NCBI GenBank assembly: GCA_963920765.1
Contig: OY987245.1
Span: 17,004,727-17,068,726, forward strand
DNA length: 64,000 nucleotides
Reading direction: 5' to 3'
Source of the DNA: Ulota crispa
Lineage: Eukaryota > Streptophyta > Bryopsida > Orthotrichales > Orthotrichaceae
Positions 2,691-64,000 of the stretch are shown piece by piece. Positions within the stretch are counted from its first letter, which is position 1, and every line of letters starts with the position of its first letter. The position numbers and the translations under genes were made by a program. Under the pieces are notes generated by a model that was not told the origin of the DNA, did no database searches, and saw only the letters and a program-made list of their open reading frames with translations.

Positions 2691-3972
2691 AGATACCCGT
2701 TCCAAGACATCCATTTCTAGATACCCAATCCAAGACACCCATTTTCAGATACCTGTTCCAAGACATCCATTTCCATATACCTGTTACAAGACACCCATCT
2801 TCAGATACCCATTCCAAGACACCCATTTTCAGATACCCGTTCCAAGACATCCATTTCCATATACCTGTTACAAGACACCCATCTTCAGATACCCGTTCCA
2901 AGACACCCATTTTTAGATACCCGTTCCAAGACACCCATTTCTAAATACCCATTCTAAGACACCAATTTTCAAATACCCGTTCCAAGACACCCATCTTCAG
3001 ATACCCGTTCCAAGATACTCATTCCAAGACACCCATTCCAAGACACCCATTTCAAGATACCTGTTCTAAGATACCCATTTCAAGATACCCATTCCAAGAC
3101 ACCCATATCAAGATACCCGTTTCAAGATACCCATTCCAAGACACACATTTTGAGATACCCAATCCAAGACACCCATTTTGACATACCCAATCCAAGACAC
3201 CCATTTGGAGATACCCATTCTAAGACACCCATTCCAAGACACCCATATCAAGATACCTATTTCAAGATACCCATTCCAAGACACCCATTTCAAGATACCC
3301 ATTCCAAGACACCCATTTTGAGATACCCATTCCAAGACACCCATTTTGAGATACCCATTCCAAGACACCCATTTTGAGATACCCATTCCAAGACACCCAT
3401 TTTGAGATACCCATTCCAAGACACCCATTTTGAGATACCCATTCCAAGACACCCATTTTGAGATACCCATTCCAAGACACCCATTTTGAGATACCCATTC
3501 CAAGACACCCATTTTGAGATACCCATTCCAAGACACCCATTTTGAGATACCCATTCCAAGACACCCATTTTGAGATACTCATTCCAAGACACCCATTCCA
3601 AGACACCCATTCCAAGACACCCATTCCAAGACACCCATTCCAAGACACCCATTCCAAGACACCCATTCCAAGACACCCATTCCAAGACACCCATTCCAAG
3701 ACACCCATTCCAAGACACCCATTCCAAGACACCCATTCCAAGACACCCATTCCAAGACACCCATTCCAAGACACCCATTTTAAGATACCCATTCAGAAAC
3801 ACCATTTTAAAATACCCATCTCCAGATACCTGTTCCAAGATACCCATCTCCAGATACCCGTTCCAAAATACCCATCTCTAGATACCCATTCCAAGATACC
3901 CATTTTGATATACTCCTTTCAGGATACCATTTCAAGATACCCACTTCAAGATACCCGTTCCCAGATACCCGT
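2691..3972. repeat. 14-bp minisatellite, about 90 units
   Basis: The array is built from ACACCCATTCCAAG and variants (ATACCCATTCCAAG, ACACCCATTTTGAG). From 3300 to 3570 the variants alternate as a 28-bp higher-order unit. From about 3579 to 3778 the array is an almost perfect run of the plain 14-mer. The edges are degenerate, with more GATACCCGTTCCAAGA forms. Long open frames occur on both strands because the units rarely contain stops; they translate as QDTHSKTPIPRHPF and WNGYLKMGVLEWVS repeats and are not genes. The array ends about 100 bp before the dehydrogenase start codon. Confidence 0.95.
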
Positions 3973-11044: not shown

Positions 11045-11281
11045 TATACAATATTGAAAACTAAGAAATAGGGCTAGGACTAAGCATTGCAATTGGGTAA
11101 TGATGTATTGGAATCATGGATTTTTTTGCACTTTTCTTCCTAACCATGGTAGTGCTAGATGTGATAGTCATGAGATGGAGCCTCATCAATTTCTATTTCA
11201 GATAAAAAATTTATTTGACATAAGACTTTACGTGTATTCATTGATGATTTTTTTGAAGAATAATTAGATGAAAAGTTTTAA

Positions 11282-12209
11282 CCCCTAAAGGATTGTTGTC
11301 CTTTTAGGGGACAGGTGGGAGTTTGGGCATGTACCTTTGGATAAGTTACTTTGTGTGATTTTTAGAGACTTTTATTGAAGGTGGGGAATTCAAAGATCAA
11401 CACGGGCATCTAATTTTTTCCTCATTCCAACAATTATTGAAGAAGTTATGCAAGAAAATCTGAAAAGCAAGGGAGGACTGCCCACCCAAGCAACCCAAAA
11501 ACTTCTTTAAAAATTAATTTTTTTTAAAATTAAAATTTGAAATTGGTTCTTTAGACTTTTTTTATAGGTGAGAAGCTTTGAATCATTCAATTTCAATCAA
11601 TGACATGAAAGTTATGAGGAGTTATTGTTTGCGGGCAGTTATGGAATCTCTACTCTAAAATAAACTTTGAAGTCCTTTGTTTTACTCAATTTTTATTAGT
11701 TTGGAAAAAAACAAAACCAAAGGATGTAGATTGTTTATCACAACGTTATGACCGTTGGGATTTGCATTTTTCATTTTAATAATTAAATTCTTAACAATTT
11801 TGTGATTTGACTCATTCTCTACTTCTTTTTACTTATTGATTTTTCCTATGTGTTGTGTAGTTCCAATTGATTTGAAAATTCTCCCACACATAGCTAACTT
11901 GATCTCCTACATGGGAAAAATAAAGTGCAAAGTTGCCTAGAGCAATTACTTTCATGTAAGAATGGTTAAAGACTTCTAAAATTTTGCGACAGCATGAAAA
12001 AAAACTTGTCTTTTCACTTTAGATGTAAATATCCCACTCATGTCCATCTGGAATGATCTAATTTTTTTCCACAAGTACCTAATCCAATTTAGGGCAAGAT
12101 CCTATGATTGGATTTCCCAAATTTTCAAAAAAAATTACCTTCTTACTAACCCTAAAAAATGGTAGTTTTAAGTGATTTTCACTGAAAAAATGGCTCAGTC
12201 CTTTAGGGG
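11282..12209. mobile_element. TTAA-flanked inverted-repeat element, copy 1
   Basis: The termini CCCCTAAAGGAT and GTCCTTTAGGGG are complementary apart from the last base, and each is flanked by TTAA (11278-11281, 12210-12213). The left arm carries a small hairpin (CCTAAAGGATTGTTGTCCTTTTAGG). The body matches the copy at 12900-13876 over most of its length, including GCATGTACC, GAAGAAGTTATGCA and GCTTTGAATCATTCAATTT. No coding capacity. TTAA duplication with CCC/GGG ends is the piggyBac pattern; a PIF/Harbinger-type TAA target is the alternative. Confidence 0.75.
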
Positions 12210-12899
12210 TTAATCAATTTTTTTATATTATTGTTTATATGGTTACGTTTTTTGATGTACTTTTCCAACGATTATCAATAAAATTTGAATTCAAAAACTC
12301 AGTCTTCTTTCTAAATTGTTCATGTATTGAATACTAATGGTTTTCTTTAGATTTTTATTTTGTTTTTTTGTATATTTAAATTCTAACTAGGAGAATATGT
12401 TTTGGAATTTTCATCCAGCTCTGAAACTTCATAATAAAGGCCCATTTTTAAAATTAAGAAAGTAGTTTTTAATGTACGTAGAACATACTTATTTCTTTTG
12501 AGCTATAAAATACTTGCGCACATGAGTTTGAAAATTAATATATATACCAAATAAATGTTAAAAGCCATTGCAAGCAAGTACATGGGTAAATAGTCAAGTT
12601 CTTGCATACATGGTGTATGTTTGCATTGTTCGAAATTGGAAGGCATATTAATTGGCTTAACTAAGAGCATGAAGATTGTGACACTCAATTGTATTGAAGC
12701 TATACAAAGAAAAAATTAGAGTGGATTTTGGTTTCAAATCACTTTTCTTTAAAAATGTCAAAATTGTAAATATATGCTAACTGAAGACAACAAAATTTTT
12801 TGTTCCTTCTATTGGGCAAATTAGGTTTTTTCTTTGGGGTTAAAAGAATATTGTTCTATTGTGAATGAGTGATAGCAAAAATGTTCTTGATCTTTTGAA

Positions 12900-13876
12900 C
12901 CCCTAAAGGACCATTGTCCTTTTGAGGGACAAATGAGATTTTGAGCATGTACCTAACTACCTATGGCTAAACAACCTAAACTAAACTACTTTGTGTGATT
13001 TTTTGAAACTTTTATTTAAGATGGGAAATTCAAAGGTCTGTGTGGGCATCCAATTTTTCCTTCATTTTGACATTTATTGAAGAAGTTATGCATGAATATT
13101 TGCAAAATAGGGGAGAGCAAGCAACCAAACACTTTTTTCAAAATAACTTTTTTTCAAAATAAAACCCTTAAATTGGTTCTTTAGATTTAAGCATATGTGG
13201 GGAGCTTTGAATCATTCAATTTTGATTTATGAGTGAAAGGTTTTAGTTTGTGGGCAAGTACATGACTCCCATACCTCCATTCCTTTTGCCTTTGCCCTTT
13301 GGTGCTTTACTTTTTTGAGCTCTTTGTGAATTTGTTTTTTAACTTCTTTTTTTCCAAGTTGTAGTAGACTAAGATTCCTTAGTTGGTTTTCACCATTTGG
13401 ATCAAAGTAAATAAATTTTGAATTTTGAATATTACACAAATCCCCCATTTTGGCGTAGTGTATATGCAAATTTGATGGCCTTACGGCATTGCAATATTTT
13501 ACAAAGTGTGATTCACACCTCCAGTTTGTTTGAAAATTCTCCCACACTTACTTAACTTGGTCTTCTACATGGAGAAATAAACCTCAACTTTGCATAGAGC
13601 AATTTTTTTGATTTAGGGGTGGTTAAAGGCTTCTGAAATTTTTGGGCAACAAGAAAAAAAACTTTTTATTTCACTTCAGATGTCAATATCTCACTCCTCT
13701 ACGTCTAGGATGAGTTGAATTTTTTTTCCACAAGTACCTGAGTACCTCCCATAGTCTAGGGCAACATCTTATAATTGCATTTCCAAAAACAATTATTTTT
13801 GTACCTTTCTACTCATTCCTCCAAAGTGACAGTTTTCAATAACTATCACTAAAAAAAGGGCTTGGTCCTTTAGGGG
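12900..13876. mobile_element. TTAA-flanked inverted-repeat element, copy 2
   Basis: The left end is CCCCTAAAGGACCATTGTCC, preceded by TTGAA; the right end is GGTCCTTTAGGGG, followed by TTAA. It is the same family as copy 1, about 700 bp downstream in the same orientation. The TTGA at the left shows a mutated or imprecise target site. The minus-strand open stretch near 13227-13547 is not conserved in copy 1 and is not called as a gene. Confidence 0.72.
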
Positions 13877-13901
13877 TTAAAACATGATAGAACATACATT
13901 A

Positions 13902-45109: not shown

Positions 45110-45840
45110 AGATGCGTTTTCTTTCAGATAGAGAAGCTGAGAGCTTAAGTGATTGAGTCCTAGTTTTGAGTTACACGATTTTCGTTTGCATTCGGCAGAG
45201 TACTGGTCCATAGCTTTTCGTTTTAACTGCTACCGTTTTACTTAATCCTCATGTGTTTAGAAGATGCTCTGTTCTGTCAGATAGCAAGTTGAGAGAGCTT
45301 AAGTGATTTGAGTCCTAGTTTTAAGTTACACGATTTTCGTTTGCTTTCGGCAGAGTATTTGATTCGGTGCAGAGCTTTTCGTTTAAGCTGCTACCGTTTT
45401 ACTTAACCCTCATGTATTCAGAAGATGCTCTGTTCTTTCAGATAGCCAGTTGAGAGTTCTTAAGTGATTGAGTCCTGGTTTTAAGTTACACGTTATTCGT
45501 TTGCATTCAGCAGATTACTGGTCCATAGCTTTTCGTTTAAGCTGCTACCGTCCTCGTGTGTTCAGAAGATGCTCTGTGTATCAACCTTCGCATGCTTTGA
45601 TGATTGCTCAGAGGCCATGGACTAATTTACTAAGATGCGTTTTCTTTCAGATAGCACGTTGAGTGCTCAAGTGATTGAGTCCTAGTTTTAAGTTTCACGA
45701 TTTTCGTTTGCATTCGGCAGAGTACTGGTCCATAGATTTTCGTTTAAGCTGCTACCGTTTTACTTAATCCTCGTGTGTTCAGAAGATGCTCTGTGTGTCA
45801 ACCTTCGCATGCTTTGACGATTGCTTAATGAAACTTAAAC
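45110..45840. repeat. Four tandem ~150-bp repeats upstream of COI1
   Basis: Units start near 45110, 45261, 45421 and 45630. Each opens with AAGATGC, then TCAGATAG, GTGATT(T)GAGTCCT, TTACACGATTTTCGTTTGC and GCTGCTACCG. Two spacers contain TCAACCTTCGCATGCTTTGA (about 45576 and 45798). They lie 550-1280 bp upstream of the start codon, in the promoter or 5' UTR region. Confidence 0.88.
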
Positions 45841-45992
45841 AACAATTTATATGTAAAGTTCTGGTGTTGCTCAGTGGACGATAAAGTTTTGAAGTATTCA
45901 GGAACTTAATACCGACAACAATTTATATGTAAAGTTCTGGTGTTGTTCAGTGGACGATAAAGTTTTGAAATAGTCAGGAACTTAATACCGAC
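45841..45992. repeat. 76-bp tandem duplication upstream of COI1
   Basis: Units 45841-45916 and 45917-45992 both run from AACAATTTATATGTAAAGTT to GAACTTAATACCGAC with only a few mismatches. The array directly follows the ~150-bp repeats. Confidence 0.93.
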
Positions 45993-46378: not shown

Positions 46379-46390
46379 ATGTCAGCATGA
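46379..46390 (+). promoter_or_regulatory. Three-codon upstream frame overlapping the COI1 start (ATGA overlap)
   Basis: ATG TCA GCA TGA at 46379-46390 terminates on the TGA that overlaps the COI1 ATG at 46387-46389. If the transcript starts upstream, this minimal frame could lower initiation or feed it by reinitiation. Confidence 0.5.
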
Positions 46391-48496
46391 GTTCAAACCC
46401 TTCTGTTTCGGGATCGGGAGAGATGGAGTCAATGTTTGGGCAAAACAATCGGGCGAGGGTGGTGGCTACGGGGGCGATGGCGATGACGGACGAGACCCTG
46501 GCGTGTGTGTTGAAGTACGTCGATGAGCCGCGGGATAGAGCAGCGGTATCACTGGTGTGCCAGCAATGGCATCGCGTGGACGGTATGACGCGCAAGGTTG
46601 TCACCATTGCCAACATGTACGCCACCAGCCCTGCATCGCTCACGCGGCGCTTCAAGTGCCTGCGAGGGCTGCGTCTCAAGGGCAAGCCGCGCGCAGCGGA
46701 GTATGACCTGGTACAGAGCAACTGGGGAGGCTATGCTGAGCCATGGCTGCAGGAGCTGACTGGGAACTACAGAGACCTTCACACTTTGCAGCTGCGGCGC
46801 TTGACGGTGCTGGATTCGGATTTGGCGCTCATTGCGGAGTCAACGTATAGCTCGGGGTTGCAAGTGTTACACCTGCACAAGTGTGTCGGTTTCACCACCA
46901 ATGGCCTTATTCCTATTGCTCGCTCTTGTCGGTAAGCCTCATTTCTGCCATCTGCCGAAATTCTAGGGTTCAAATTTTGAAATAATGTTTTCTAAGGACG
47001 AGTGTTTTCTGATAACTGCTTCTATCTCCTGCTCAAATCATGTCGGACTATTTCTATGATGGTTTCTAACTCGGAAATCTTTGATTTCGTGGACATCACC
47101 TGAAAGGAGTGTTATTGCTGAATACGATCTGCCTTCTGCTGTGTGACTTCTAGGTCTCTGAAAAGGCTGAGCTTAGAAGACAGCGAAGTAGAAGACAAAG
47201 GAGGAGAATGGATACATGCCTTAGCTCACTGCAACTCGACCTTGGAAGAGCTGCATTTCGGTGTCCTGGGAATCGGAGATGTCGACGTTAGAGATTTGGT
47301 GATGTTAGTGGAGAACTGCAGGTCATTGGTGTGCCTGAAAGTGGGTGAAGTTGAGATGCTTAATATGGCTGATGTTCTGAGGAGAGTGCCTCATCTCGAA
47401 GAGCTTGGTGCAGGGTGTTACAATGAGGACGAAGATGTTGTGGATGAGAACGTTGTGCCCGTCGAATTGCCAAAGCGCTTAAAATCATTATCAGGAATGT
47501 GGTCCCTCACGGACGTTGGATTGTCAATGATTCTCCCTGTTGCACCGAACCTAAGAAAACTCGATCTCAGATTCACTCTTCTAAGTAGTGAAGGCCAGTG
47601 CTTGCTTTTCAGTCATTGTCGTTCTCTCGAAGAACTGCAGGTGCATCATCTTTATACATGAGCTAAATTTCTTAATTTTTCTGTGAATGAACATCTTCGT
47701 AAATGAAGCGAGATTCATCAAAGTGGCCATTGTTTTGTTCCATGGACAGACACGGAATACACTGGGCGATGATGGCATGGAGACACTCGGAAGGACATGC
47801 AAAGAGTTAAGGAAGCTGCGAGTAGAGGATGATGAAACAGGAGCTATTACCCAGAGAGGTGTTGTTGCAGTGGCTCAAGGTTGTATAAAGCTAGTACAGC
47901 TGATTCTCTTTGTCGCCAGCGTCAGCAACGCTACTTTGGCGATGGTGGGTCAATGCTGTCCAGATTTGACGGATATCCGTATTGTTTTAGAGGCCAGGCC
48001 AAGGCCTGGCCATGACCCTCCAGATTTCCCTCTTGACGATGGCTTGAAGTTAATGCTCAAGGGCTGTGTTCACCTGACCCGGCTGGCTTTCTATTTACGT
48101 CACGGTTGTTTAACAGACAGTGGAATGGAATACATAGGCATTCATGGTCCCAACCTCAAGTGGTTACTGATAGGATGCACAGGTGCAAGCGATGTTGGGC
48201 TAGCGAATTTGGCATTCCGGTCCCAACGTATCCAACGACTGGAGATTCGGGACTGCCCTTTTGGAGGTGCAGGCCTTGCTGCTGCTGTTACAGCCATGAG
48301 TTCCCTCAAGTATCTATGGGTGCAGGGAACCCGAGCCATGGAAGCTGGGCGTAACTTAGCGGCACTTGCTCGTCCTTTTCTTACCGTGGAGGTCTGTCCT
48401 CCAGCTGGTGGGGAACCACAGCTGCAGCTGTTTGCTTACTACACCCTTGCTGGGCCTCGCACAGATGGCCCTTCGGATCTCACGATTTTCGCTTGA
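46387..48496 (+). CDS. COI1: COI1-type F-box/LRR jasmonate-family receptor
   Basis: Exons 46387-46931, 47154-47640 and 47750-48496 give 592 aa, the same length as Arabidopsis COI1. The protein would be the substrate receptor of an SCF ubiquitin ligase that binds JAZ repressors with an oxylipin hormone in the nucleus. An F-box lies at about 33-75 (ETLACVLKYVDEPRDRAAVSLVCQQW), then leucine-rich repeats with KGKPRAAEYDL (99-108), NWGGYAEPW, TQRGVVAVAQGC, FYLRHG, KYLWVQG and AYYTLAGPRTDGP. Aligning to my recollection of Arabidopsis COI1, the pocket arginines R85, R348, R409 and R496 (here 102, 368, 421, 511), Y444, W467 and L469 are kept. A384 is Ile396, Y386 is Phe398, M88 is Glu105 and F89 is Tyr106. 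TIR1-type auxin receptors are less similar. The gene stands alone, head-to-head with polymerase epsilon. Confidence 0.94.
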
Positions 48497-53158: not shown

Positions 53159-53465
53159 TGACAAAAGCCCTCCAAACACACGGACTTCGGTTACAAAAAC
53201 CCTCGAACACACGGTCTTGGGTTACAAAACTCCTCCAACACACGGTCTTTGGTTATAAAGCCCTCCAACACACGGTCTTCGGTTATAAAGCCCTCCAACA
53301 CACGGTCTTCGGTTATAAAGCCCTCCAACACACGGTCTTCGGTTATAAAGCCCTCCAACACACGGTCTTCGGTTATAAAGCCCTCCAACACACGGTCTTC
53401 GGTTATAAAGCCCTCCAACACACGGTCTTCGGTTATAAAGCCCTCCAACACACGGTCTTAGGTAT
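53159..53465. repeat. 30-bp minisatellite in the 3' UTR position of the chitinase-like gene
   Basis: Ten units of TATAAAGCCCTCCAACACAC plus GGTCTTCGGT. The seven copies nearest the gene are almost perfect and the first three are degenerate. Because 30 is a multiple of three, both strands stay open (repeats VIKPSNTRSS and LEGFITEDRV), but this is not a gene. The array stops about 5-10 bp from the stop codon at 53471-53473. Confidence 0.95.
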
Positions 53466-53470
53466 AGATT

Positions 53471-55812
53471 TTAGAGTGATGCATATGCCAGGGGAATCAC
53501 ACCTTGCAGACCACACCCCAGATTCTGGCCCGGATCCTGAACACCGAAGTAACCTTGGAGGAAGTACAAGTAGTGCGAGATGCGAGACTGCATACGTGGA
53601 TCATCGCCATGGCCGCACTCCTCATCACCGGTCTTGATGTTGATGGTTAACCCAAACCCGGGCTTGCGTTCAGCAAGCGTGTCTACTGTCGATGGCGTCC
53701 ATTTGTTGATCATGATCTGGTGTGGCGATGGCCTGGTCTTTGCTGGTGTCATCCAGTACCAAATGGCTGCCTGCCAGGCTACAGTCTCGTTCTGAGACAG
53801 AATCTCCGGATGTTTCAACAAATCCTGCTTCACAGCCACCCCGGTGGGTCCATAGTTGTAGTTCCTGCAACAATTTCACGACATGAGCATCGTCCCTTAC
53901 ATTACTGTGCTTGGTTATGCATAAAAAATAAAAATAAAATCTGATCCACAGAAAAACAACCCTCAAATAGTCAAATCATATTATGGGTATAAAGTAGGAG
54001 GCTCTAATTCGGAGCAGGCTCTAAAATGGAGCACCTCCTCAAATGTACTCCATTTGTACATGTTGTTTTTCATAGCCCTTCATCAATGTACACTGGATGT
54101 ACATTTGAGGAGGTGCTCCATTTTAGAGCCCTATGGCCTTTCCATTTCAAAATTTTGTAACTAATTCCACAAAGCACCAAAAATTATGAAATAATTTGAA
54201 TTAGATGCCAATTCTTCTTGTCTTTCAAAGAAAATTTACTGAAAAAGATTTCAAGAAGATTCAACTACCCAAAATTCAGTTTCAGCCCTTAGATGCTCCA
54301 TTTGTGAGCCTTCTACCTTAGTGAAAGATTCAATAGAAACGTACCAGTACAGAGGGAAGGCTCCACGTCCATAATATCCAGCGCCTGCTGCACAAGGGTA
54401 CGTCAAATCGCCAGTCTTGCAGTAATCCTTTTCAGGTGCAAGCTCTTGGTTGTAGCAGAGTCCCCATGCGTAAGGACCGTCCTTGGCTCCACTCCATCCA
54501 CCTGCAAATACATCACATTCACAATCATCCTTTACAAATCCATATTTACCCACATTGGATGTTTCTCCAGAATTCCACAGTCCTGAGGCCTAAACTGCAG
54601 CACGAATGTCCTGTTAGGGTTTCGAGCCACCACCTTCAGAAATTATGGTAAGGTAGGAGGTTCTAAATATGTGCAGTCTCTAAAATGGTGCACCTCAAAT
54701 GTACTCCGTTTGTACATGTTGTTTTTTCATATCTCTTCAGTAATGTACATGAAATGTACACTTGAGGAGGAGCACCATTTTAGAGCCCTATGCCATTTCA
54801 ACTTCAAAACTTCATAACTAATTCTACAAAGCTTCAAAAAATATGAAACTTCGGTTAGATACCAATTCCTCTTGTCTTTCAAGGAAAAATTTACTGAAAA
54901 ATATCTCAAGAAGTTTCATCTCCCCCAAAATTCAATTTCAGCCCTTAGATGGTCCATTCATGAGCCTCCTACCTTACATTCTTATCATACAACGAACACA
55001 CATTATGTGTCACTTCAGAAATTCATAACTAAAGAATCTGAACCATACTAATAGTGATATGTTAGAAACCTCTTGCAAGAACCACAACACATGGTTGCAA
55101 GACAGAGAGTGTTCACAGAAGCGAGCTACAGTCAGAAAAAAGCGTGGTAAAAGATGAAGGGAAGATTTCATGGATACCCCTGCTTTTTTAGAAACATCAC
55201 AAGTACCCTAGGACCCAAAAAAGTTAGGCTCTTGTTTTGTTGTGCATGTCACTTCAATCCCATCGTCCTTTGTGTGCACGCATTACAAGAAAGAAGTAGT
55301 GTGCACACAAAGGGAAAAGGAAGGAAGTGATATGCTCAACAAAACAAACGCCTAAAAATTTTGGGTGAAATTTCTGAAAAAGCAGAGATACGTATGAAAA
55401 CATTGCAAACTTCAGGGGTAGGTATCCATGAAATTTTCCCAAAGATGAATGGCATGGCATGGCATGTGCGCTTACATGAGGTCTCGTGGGCCACGTGGGC
55501 GAAGAAAGCAGCGAGCTCTCGTTTCTGCATATCATCGCCACCGACGGAGCCGAAGCCGTCCTTCTGGTAGAGCTTGGCTGCAGCGATGAAGCCGTCGTAG
55601 CTCCAGAAGCTCTGCGCGTGCGCCACGCGGTCGTTGCGGTGGTTGAACATGCCCTCGAACATGTCCGCCGTGAACAGCTCTTCCACCGTCTGGTTGCACC
55701 CCTTCTCCTTGAAGTCCTTCTGGCACACCAACGCTTGGCTGCTCTGCACGCACATGCCCATCACCACCACCACCACCACCGCCATCGCCATAGCTGATCC
55801 CTTCTTCGCCAT
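53471..55812 (-). CDS. Secreted GH19 chitinase-like protein (CTL type) with both catalytic glutamates
   Basis: Exons 55476-55812, 54345-54501 and 53471-53864 join in frame to 295 aa. Residues 1-27 form a signal peptide with a VVVVVV core. The mature part begins LVCQKDFKEKGCNQTVEELF, with no chitin-binding module. GH19 motifs follow: HVAHETSCGWSG (Glu110), WGLCYNQE (Glu132), YYGRGAFPLYWNYNYGPTG, WQAAIWYWMTP and SHYLYFLQGYFGV. The order and the AFPLYWN motif (PIQLSHN in active class I/II chitinases) place it with the plant CTL group, of which Arabidopsis CTL1 acts in cellulose assembly and cell-wall growth. As I recall, CTL1 has lost the first acid (SKTSCG). Here the pair is present at the family's 22-residue spacing. 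Introns 1 and 2 hold three miniature elements; a 30-bp minisatellite follows the stop. The protein is probably apoplastic; activity on chitin is uncertain. Confidence 0.92.
53990..54320. mobile_element. Miniature inverted-repeat element, TAAGGTAGGA family, in intron 2 of the chitinase-like gene
   Basis: The ends TAAAGTAGGAGGCTCT and GTGAGCCTTCTACCTTA are inverted repeats. An internal hairpin is formed by CTAAAATGGAGCACCTCCTC and GAGGAGGTGCTCCATTTTAG. About 330 bp, alignable end to end with 54649-54976. Confidence 0.88.
54649..54976. mobile_element. Miniature inverted-repeat element, TAAGGTAGGA family, in intron 1 of the chitinase-like gene
   Basis: The ends TAAGGTAGGAGGTTCT and ATGAGCCTCCTACCTTA are inverted repeats. 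It has the same internal hairpin and the same TACCAATTCCTCTTGTCTTTC block as the intron-2 copy, in the same orientation. Confidence 0.88.
55159..55440. mobile_element. Fold-back element, 'GGAAGATTTCATGGATACCC' family, in intron 1 of the chitinase-like gene
   Basis: The ends GGGAAGATTTCATGGATACC and GGTATCCATGAAATTTTCCC are inverted repeats. AAAAAGTTAGGCTCTTGTTT pairs with AACAAACGCCTAAAAATTTT, and a central hairpin surrounds CTTTGTGTGCACGC / TGTGCACACAAAG. About 280 bp, lying 36 bp inside the exon-1 donor. Confidence 0.87.
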
Positions 55813-60746: not shown

Positions 60747-63152
60747 AAACATGAAGATACTATGCATGGAGATAACATCCACACAATGGAGTAGTTGCCA
60801 AACAATAGAAATCAATGTTACTTGGTAATGACATGATGTACAAAAAAATGTTTGCATTACAATGAGAGTTGCAACATATCATGTCCACAATCATAAGTTA
60901 CACTCACATGCTGCTTTTATTATAAATTGTAATTACTTCATAATTCTAAGCATATGATCTACCATGCTTGCAAAACCATGAATAGAATCACAAGACAATC
61001 TTATCTTAACAAATTAATTATGGATGGAATAAGTGCAACAAGAGTTATTACAATCCAATTTCAACATATTTTTGTACATAATGTACAACAACAATAGGAT
61101 AATTGCCCAGAAGTTAGATGATCATATTCAATTTGATGATTTTAAGTTAATACAATTCTTCCACAAGTTCAAAAACTAATTTCCAACATCTTGAGATGTA
61201 ATATGAGTTGTTTAATATTGACTTGGGAAAAACTTTAGCCCCCTCTTTGGGATGAAACTTGAACCACTTAACATCAAAAATGGTGTTCCCAAAATGGTGA
61301 AAGGGATGATAACGGTGTGGATTTGGTGGATATTTGGGGGGGGAGGGGGGTTAGATCAGGCCACCTTAAAAGTGGTAAATTCACTTTTATCCAAAACTAG
61401 CTTAAAAGTGGTACATGGCAAGAGTTAAAAGTGATTATATCCACTTTTAATCATTTAATCCATTTTTTGTGTGTTTACTAGCCTATTTGAGTAAAACCAA
61501 ACACCTTCCAAAAACAAATTAGTAATGGACTCGTGGTATCAGTCTTTCTCCCATCTAAGGATGGAGAAGTCAGACTCCACAACACTTTCCAAGGACAAAT
61601 AGGTAATGGATTTGCGATATTAGTCTTTCTTGCATTCAAGGATGGAGAAATCAGACTCTATAAATGCAGTATTTGAAAACAATGTGGCAACACCTCCTGC
61701 CCAATCATGCAATGATTTGTATCACTGACCAACATGGAGAGCATGGCTAGGCAAAAATCCCGCCCAAGATTATTTGGTAGATGTCATCTTTGACTTAAAA
61801 CAATCTATAAAAAAACTAGAGAATGTTAGACTAGAGAATGGTTTGTGAAAATGATTTTCAAAAAATTGGGCAATAGTAGAATGGAGAATGGTTTGTAATT
61901 TAGCAAAGAACCTTAGTCACAAGTCACAAATGACATATTGATCATATCCTTCCATGACTTCATTGCCTTCCCTCCCATTGATGCCTCCCAAAAGGTCCTT
62001 TAAAATGAGAAACAACTAATCTTAAAAGTGATAAAAATGGCATCTATTAATAGATTTAAGGTGCCCTGGGTTAGATCCTTCTCAATGCCCTAAAAGTGGT
62101 GCATTTAAAAGGAGGAGAATATTGAAACAAAACTTGATAATCCAACCTCTTGTTTGGACAGTGATTGAGGACATGAGGAGTCTCAAACAAATACACGAGT
62201 ATATCTCACATAGATTTTGGAATTGTTTAAATTATATGTGTAGCCTACTACAACCATTACTCCTAAAATTTTGTTACTTTTTTACCATGCCTCCAAAATC
62301 TATGCAAATAATTTTTCCATTTGCTCAGAAGAGATGGCCAATATGCAAAAAATATGTATATATGTACTTTTGCATCAGCATGGTGCCATTGGAGCTTATT
62401 CAAACCATCTTAGCTTAAATTCACTTCAAGATATGATACGGCTCAAAAATGAACTTCATAGCACGTGCAATAGCAACCTAAACAATTCCACAAACTAACC
62501 ACCTGATCATAAAAGACATAAAAACATGAGGACATAAAAGTAACTTAAATGTCGTTTGAATGAAATATTTTGCGCTTTTGGTTGCCCATACATTTGCAAA
62601 TGTAACAATGAGAATGGCAGAGTGATGTCACATTGCATAATGTTACTCTTGCAACAAAAAGGATATGTGAGAATATTTTGTTTAAACAAACTTAATGCAA
62701 GTTGAGAGCCTCATGCACTGACAATCTCATGTTTGCGTTTGTGATTACTTAGACTTTGCCCTAACTTTCATTAATTTAAACATGAGAATGTCTTTGCATG
62801 AGGCCCTTACCCTACACTATTATAATGCCATTTTTTTGGGAGCAAACCGGTTGCAAAATTCTACCGTTTCAAAATTAGGTCTTATAACATTATTCCTTTG
62901 CAAATTTTTCTTAGTTTAAACTATACACACGTACCAAAACACACTTATTTAAAAAATAAAATAAAACGGTTATAGGATCATCAATAAAACTAAACAAACG
63001 ACATGATCAAAATAGCATAACTAGCAAAGGAAATGGTTTATGGGTAAATTGGTGTTTACTTCATAATTCATTTATGATTTATTCATTTGTATCGAATTAC
63101 CATGTGCTATTCCAACCTTGATACGTGATAAGATTTTAGGTGTCATTACTTA
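60747..63152. other. AT-rich intergenic DNA with one ~80-bp tandem duplication
   Basis: A ~80-bp unit is repeated at about 61506-61585 and 61586-61665 (GTCTTTCTCCCATCTAAGGA versus GTCTTTCTTGCATTCAAGGA, each followed by TGGAGAAxTCAGACT). GGGTTAGATC occurs at about 61349 and 62069. No gene is supported. Confidence 0.5.
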
Positions 63153-64000
63153 ACCCCTAAAGGACCAAGGAGCCCACTTTGGGCTTTACAAGAACTTGGG
63201 CAAGATGTATTGACTTCATAATTTGGAAATTTTTCATGAAATTTTAGGATGGATGCTATTCATCATAATCTACATGTGAAGCTTTATTTCATGTCATTCC
63301 AATAAGAAATGCAAAAGTTATAAGGTTTTTTCAATTTCAATGTCAAACCGGGCAACAAAAAATATATTCTAAATTTTTTATTTTTATTTTTATATAATTG
63401 TATAGATTGATACCTACTCAAAAAAAATTGAATCACTCAATTCCAAATAATGAGGTAAGAATTAAAAGAAGTTTTCTTTTGCGGGCAATGAAGTTAGGTA
63501 GGAAGAGGGTAGAAGAAACATATAAAGTTATCTTTTACTCTCAAAATTGAATATTTTCAAATGAGAATGAAAATGAAAGTTACTAGTTGTTTGTTAGAGC
63601 ATTCTCACCATTGGGATTAACAATTTTCAAATTCTTCCAAAATTTATTAGCATATTAGTTATATCTTTCATTCATCAATACCTTTCACTTTACAATTTTT
63701 GTAAAAATGAATCCATTTTTTATATATATATGCTTTCAACCCATTTTCTGACATATTGCAAAAATTACACAAGAAAAACAACATACGTGTTTTTCTCTAA
63801 AAAGTTTGAAAAAAAAACTTCACCTTCTAGAAGGATTAGAAAAACCTACATTTTGAAATTTAGGGACATTGATCTTGCAATCGGTGAGGATTTTCATTCT
63901 GAAATTTTGGGACAATGTACTTATGCAAGTCAACTAAAGAATCCTACGGTTGAATATGTGAGAAAATAAGTTTCAATGAAAATTTTGACCCTAGTTTGAG
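63153..64000. mobile_element. TTAA-flanked inverted-repeat element, cut by the window end
   Basis: It begins TTAACCCCTAAAGGACCAAG and contains GAATCACTCAATTCCAAATAATG and TTTGCGGGCAATG. These correspond in order to GAATCATTCAATTT and TTTGCGGGCAGT in copy 1 (11282-12209), so it is the same family though diverged. The other terminus is not in the window. Confidence 0.6.

Follow-up and report, generated by a model that had tools for sequence, protein, structure and literature searches.

Our results suggest that the window, the whole 64 kb stretch of Ulota crispa DNA that was analysed, carries an intact moss-type COI1 kept under selection. As the F-box LRR component of an SCF ubiquitin ligase, its product would probably perceive, together with a JAZ repressor, an oxylipin of the dn-OPDA type and not JA-Ile, and Phe398 would have little effect on the native ligand. 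This reading builds on the observed structure of the gene, its pocket residues, its clade and its constraint, and on the JAZ-type Jas motifs and allene oxide cyclase matches present in the genome. As far as its sequence goes, the gene is best described as an ordinary receptor, set apart by a paralogue-specific substitution that can be tested; the Ile that headed the preliminary description is a known moss feature.

Gene structure and identity

The gene spans 46387-48496 on the forward strand, from an ATG at 46387 to a TGA stop that ends at 48496, exactly the limits assigned to it in the preliminary description. Its three exons splice into one open frame of 592 aa, and both introns have GT..AG borders. 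Exon 1 (46387..46931, +) encodes the F-box, the Transp_inhibit domain and the first LRRs, and its 3' border reads TTGTCG/GTAAGC. Exon 2 (47154..47640, +), with borders CTTCTAG/GTCTCT and CTGCAG/GTGCAT, encodes LRRs, and exon 3 (47750..48496, +), which begins after GGACAG and runs to the TGA, encodes the C-terminal LRRs and most of the ligand pocket. The Pfam profiles of the F-box (PF18511, aa 31-70), the TIR1 Transp_inhibit domain (PF18791, aa 91-136) and LRR_6 all match the protein above cut-off.

When the whole protein was compared with solved structures by phmmer, the best match was Arabidopsis COI1 (3ogk_B, E 6.8e-140, 470.7 bits) and the second was TIR1 (2p1m_B, E 5e-96, 325.9 bits), a lead of 145 bits for COI1; identity is 41.5% to the former and 35.1% to the latter. 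A tree of ten rows, partly made of exon pieces joined via their profile match, places the gene with Arabidopsis COI1, a close paralogue and a third gene of the same genome in a COI1 group of four rows (support 100/98), although the long branches of the third copy and of Arabidopsis call for a warning of the long-branch-attraction type and the fine branching is unreliable. The gene falls outside the TIR1 group of this tree and is not a TIR1/AFB member. Judged by sequence, it belongs to the COI1 clade, nearer to COI1 than to TIR1/AFB or to a third, XFB-like clade.

Two tandem duplications, at 45139-45551 (161 bp x 2.6) and 45839-45992 (76 bp x 2.0), lie 0.4-1.2 kb upstream of the COI1 start and could affect its promoter.

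Relatives in the genome and constraint

A whole-genome search with exon 3 gave at least 13 matches, which by place amount to eight genes. The paralogue lies at C3:19633749-19636842, is 78% identical to the window gene and has an Ile-Ser-Tyr subpocket. Two genes group with TIR1 in the ten-row tree and are TIR1/AFB-like. The third COI1-clade gene (C10:13053000-13067500) has more introns, is more divergent, combines a Val-Met-Tyr subpocket with all four arginines, and resembles the description of Calohypnum plumiforme CpCOI1b (PMC8201998). A further clade without Arg348 and Tyr444 (C2:6598500-6609500, C2:6634500-6640500 and C1:10295500-10301500) is probably XFB; its C2:6634500-6640500 copy reads Thr-Tyr-Phe, and the other two read Ile-Ile-Tyr.

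Between the window gene and its paralogue, dS is 0.63, dN 0.14 and dN/dS 0.22 over 572 codons (Nei-Gojobori counts), and their end branches in the ten-row tree are alike (0.13 and 0.15). The dN/dS points to constraint, and both close copies look like working genes. That the window copy is a pseudogene is ruled out by this ratio together with the complete frame and the GT-AG borders.

The ligand pocket

The block IKLVQLILFVASVSN (residues 390-404) aligns with Arabidopsis QELEYMAVYVSDITN free of gaps in HMMER, with flanking gaps no closer than ~19 residues on its N-terminal and ~25 on its C-terminal side. The MAFFT alignment agrees: Ile396 corresponds to Ala384, Leu397 to Val385 and Phe398 to Tyr386. 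The replacements first proposed, Ile for Ala384 and Phe for Tyr386, are thus borne out, and the concordance of the two programs rules out misalignment as their source. All on the forward strand, the codons of this trio are ATT at 47903..47905 for Ile396 (Val377 in the Marchantia numbering of PMC8201998), CTC at 47906..47908 for Leu397, the third wall of the same subpocket (residues from PMC5856746), and TTT at 47909..47911 for Phe398 (Marchantia Tyr379 by numbering offset). The alignment also agrees with the earlier statement that four pocket arginines are kept: Arg102 (46690..46692, CGC), Arg368 (47819..47821, CGA), Arg421 (47978..47980, CGT) and Arg511 (48248..48250, CGG), again on the forward strand, match Arg85, Arg348, Arg409 and Arg496. 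With Tyr459 (48092..48094, +, TAT) in the place of Tyr444, the gene has all five residues expected of a COI1 pocket. Two further pocket changes had been missed, Leu397 for Val385 and Tyr106 (46702..46704, +, TAT) for Phe89, which is Tyr85 in Marchantia; other differences from Arabidopsis are Met88 to Glu105 and Tyr472 to Cys487.

On a list of 11 pocket residues drawn from PMC3540053 and PMC5856746, the window gene is identical to Arabidopsis COI1 at seven (232 of 554 aligned residues overall), the paralogue at eight and the third copy at nine. The four residues that differ in the window gene are the entire Ala384-Val385-Tyr386 trio and Phe89. The Val or Ile of bryophyte dn-OPDA-type COI1 at the Ala384 position is present as Ile396. 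The all-Tyr aromatic cage of the MpCOI1 docking model (Tyr85/Tyr379/Tyr437) is incomplete, with Tyr106 and Tyr459 matching and Phe398 replacing Tyr379; this cage is one species' model and no published group criterion, and was not counted against membership. A structure predicted for exon 3 from the single sequence places exon-3 residues 50-55 on a strand (52 is residue 396 and 54 is residue 398), but its confidence is low (mean pLDDT 62, and 55-58 in two ten-residue blocks around Ile396 and Phe398) and it was not used for geometry.

Ile at the Ala384 position

Ile predominates in moss COI1s at the position of Marchantia Val377 (Inagaki 2021, PMC8201998, citing Monte 2018). The nearest known counterparts of the window gene are Calohypnum plumiforme CpCOI1a and the COI1 genes of Physcomitrium patens, moss members of the COI1 clade, for which Ile is the predominant state on record (PMC8201998). 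Calohypnum has Ile in CpCOI1a and Val in CpCOI1b (PMC8201998), and the present genome repeats this pattern, with Ile in the window gene and its close paralogue and Val in the third COI1-clade gene. The moss literature (PMC8201998), the Ile of the paralogue and the Val of the third gene rule out that the Ile is new or marks an unusual receptor. A bulky residue at this position is the usual state in mosses and bryophytes, expected of a dn-OPDA-type receptor, and the window gene confirms a published moss feature. The preliminary description had spoken of a working receptor with altered ligand choice. Its first part agrees with the evidence, as does the idea that JA-Ile is not favoured, but the wording misleads, because it presents a known bryophyte state as an alteration.

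Phe at the Tyr386 position

At the Tyr386 position, Phe398 (TTT) of the window gene stands against Tyr383 (TAC) of the paralogue and Tyr in both the third copy and Arabidopsis. Marchantia keeps Tyr379 there (PMC11225365), an equivalence that we infer from the offset in residue numbers seen at Val377, Tyr437 and Arg489. For the Calohypnum COI1s, the residues in contact with ligand and JAZ 'were conserved' in the words of PMC8201998, whose available text does not name Tyr386; if that residue is included, the window Phe departs from them too. TIR1 (Leu378, Phe380) and the two TIR1-like genes of the genome also have Phe here, paired with Leu in the place of Ala384. These three resemble the window gene in the large aliphatic residue and the Phe, but differ from it by their TIR1 grouping, a gap at the Tyr444 position and other pocket residues. 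The simplest reading, provisional since the comparison covers four sequences plus a single published residue, is that the change from Tyr to Phe arose on the branch of the window copy within the COI1 group. Among the literature matches listed, we came across no report of a moss with Phe here, which does not imply its absence from print, and no mention of Y386F or Phe386.

Arabidopsis COI1, the paralogue and the third copy agree at 147 columns, and the window copy departs from them at six of these; paralogue-specific changes at otherwise conserved columns number seven. Phe398 is the sole change of the six that falls within the list of 11 pocket residues. The probability that at least one of six changes lands on the eight pocket columns among the 147 is 0.29, so that the position of Phe398 is in itself no evidence of selection, and an enrichment of copy-specific changes in the pocket is unsupported. 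The substitution is chemically conservative, and is copy-specific among the sequences compared.

The hydroxyl of Tyr386 bonds the amide of JA-Ile in the crystal structure 3OGL (PMC11225365), and its contact has also been described for coronatine (PMC3540053). In the docking model of MpCOI1, Tyr379 is part of the aromatic wall, the arginines and Tyr85 hold the dn-OPDA carboxylate, and the available text lists no bond from Tyr379 to dn-OPDAs (PMC11225365); these contacts derive from docking on a homology model and not from a bryophyte complex structure. The earlier claim that losing the hydroxyl removes a ligand contact thus concerns a contact described for JA-Ile and coronatine, and the equivalent of Tyr85, which bonds dn-OPDA in the docking model, is present as Tyr106. 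Phe398 by itself is therefore no argument for a new ligand. The difference between close paralogues provides a clean natural test of the Tyr386 hydroxyl when the ligand has no amide, and bears on which ligand moss COI1 binds, a question left open by PMC8201998.

Proposed function

Docking indicates that Ala384, Val385 and Tyr386 of Arabidopsis line the amino-acid pocket for coronatine or its Ile analogue (PMC5856746). In the window protein, Ile396 and Leu397 would fill the subpocket which in Arabidopsis accommodates the side chain of the amino-acid part of JA-Ile or coronatine. With Phe398, the hydroxyl that bonds the amide of these ligands would be gone and the aromatic wall kept, and Tyr106 and the arginines would hold the carboxylate of free dn-OPDA. 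The protein would then act as a receptor for free dn-OPDA-type acids, at little cost from the loss of the Tyr hydroxyl. A filled amino-acid subpocket would fit the inhibition of dn-OPDA activity by conjugation to amino acids that is reported for Marchantia (PMC11663715, PMC13364333).

The known dn-OPDA receptor MpCOI1 of Marchantia polymorpha (PMC8201998, PMC11225365) resembles the window gene in its bulky aliphatic residue (Val377) and in the Tyr at the Phe89 position (Tyr85); it differs in having Val instead of Ile and in keeping a Tyr (Tyr379, equivalent by numbering offset) at the position of Phe398. Arabidopsis COI1 (3ogk, 3ogl, 3ogm) shares the F-box LRR organization, the four pocket arginines and Tyr444, but has Ala384, Val385, Tyr386 and Phe89 where the window gene has Ile, Leu, Phe and Tyr. 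What chiefly speaks against a settled ligand is the work on Calohypnum, where the COI1-JAZ interaction was not demonstrable with OPDA, dn-OPDA or dn-iso-OPDA according to the available text of PMC8201998, whose authors give an inactive protein or another ligand as possible reasons.

The rest of the genome gives a context for such a receptor. A search for the Jas motif returned eight matches at E up to 1, six of them above the family cut-off; the same search matched two of 14 control genomes, none above cut-off. Three of the six loci (one on C9, two on C7) read ELPQARKASLARFLE(K/R)RKDR, and the putative JAZ degron peptides of this moss are of the ELPQARKASLARFLEKRKDR type. From the Jas motif alone, we infer that these loci are JAZ. 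Allene oxide cyclase gave 14 exon-level matches on five contigs, all above cut-off, two of which read across stop codons, and matched none of the 14 control genomes.

Alternative readings

The two close copies might be specialized, with Phe398 and Leu397, and Ser in the paralogue, giving them different ligand preferences or JAZ partners. A precedent is rice OsCOI2, which like the window gene is a duplicated COI that naturally has a residue other than Tyr in the place of Tyr386, although this residue is His and not Phe (PMC3540053). Its His-391 narrows JAZ interaction, with three of the 12 OsJAZ proteins tabulated interacting, whereas H391Y widens it and enables complementation of coi1-1, achieved in 8/10 lines against 0/38 with OsCOI2 itself (PMC3540053). 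The Tyr386 position can thus tune partner choice in a duplicated COI. In the present genome, the window copy is the odd one out at this position beside the third copy, the paralogue and Arabidopsis, and a dS of 0.63 left the copies time to diverge. Yet only one of the six copy-specific changes is on a pocket column (P 0.29), and neither branch is accelerated. A change from Tyr to Phe is also far milder than one from Tyr to His, which counts against specialization. Overall, we consider this reading rather improbable.

A stricter form of the same idea would be a division of labour, in which the Ile-Leu-Phe window copy is fully sealed against JA-Ile and jasmonates conjugated to amino acids, and responds exclusively to free acids of the dn-OPDA type or works with a JAZ set of its own. 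The Ile-Ser-Tyr sister would retain the hydroxyl that binds the amide, and conjugates or further forms of OPDA might be sensed by it. We give this little credence; if true, moss jasmonate receptors would divide their labour at the level of the pocket.

It is very unlikely that Phe398 is one of several changes tolerated in a duplicate that is being lost. A degree of redundancy is likely for one of two close paralogues (78% identical), but the frame is complete, the splice borders are canonical, dN/dS is 0.22 and all four arginines are kept, and the window copy has six copy-specific changes at otherwise conserved columns where the paralogue has seven. It is barely credible that the protein roughly equals Arabidopsis COI1 in its perception of JA-Ile or coronatine, since it retains Tyr444 and the four arginines of the pocket but has other residues at all three positions of the amino-acid subpocket, and exogenous JA is described in a review as causing no growth inhibition in Marchantia, P. 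patens and a hornwort. A maintained receptor of the dn-OPDA type is the reading that we prefer.

Neighbourhood of the duplicates and other features of the window

We compared the 64 kb window with the 60 kb around the C3 paralogue. Window positions 63150-63998 have 87% nucleotide identity to a stretch ~7.5 kb downstream of the paralogue, in the same orientation; four ORFs tested in this segment gave no Pfam match at E up to 0.1. Positions 11279-12219 and 12900-13880 match two sites close to the paralogue at 71-82% identity, with the opposite strand in 7/7 blastn rows, and look like dispersed repeats. Within these 64 and 60 kb, one shared block besides COI1, together with dispersed-looking segments, is too little to call a segmental or whole-genome duplication.

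Elsewhere in the window there are two minisatellites with long repetitive ORFs across the array, one at 2691-3970 (28 bp unit, ~46 copies) and one at 53164-53463 (30 bp unit, ~10 copies). The N-terminal part of a GH19 chitinase is found at 55336-55812 on the reverse strand (PF00182, E 3.1e-16, profile positions 3-79 of 232).
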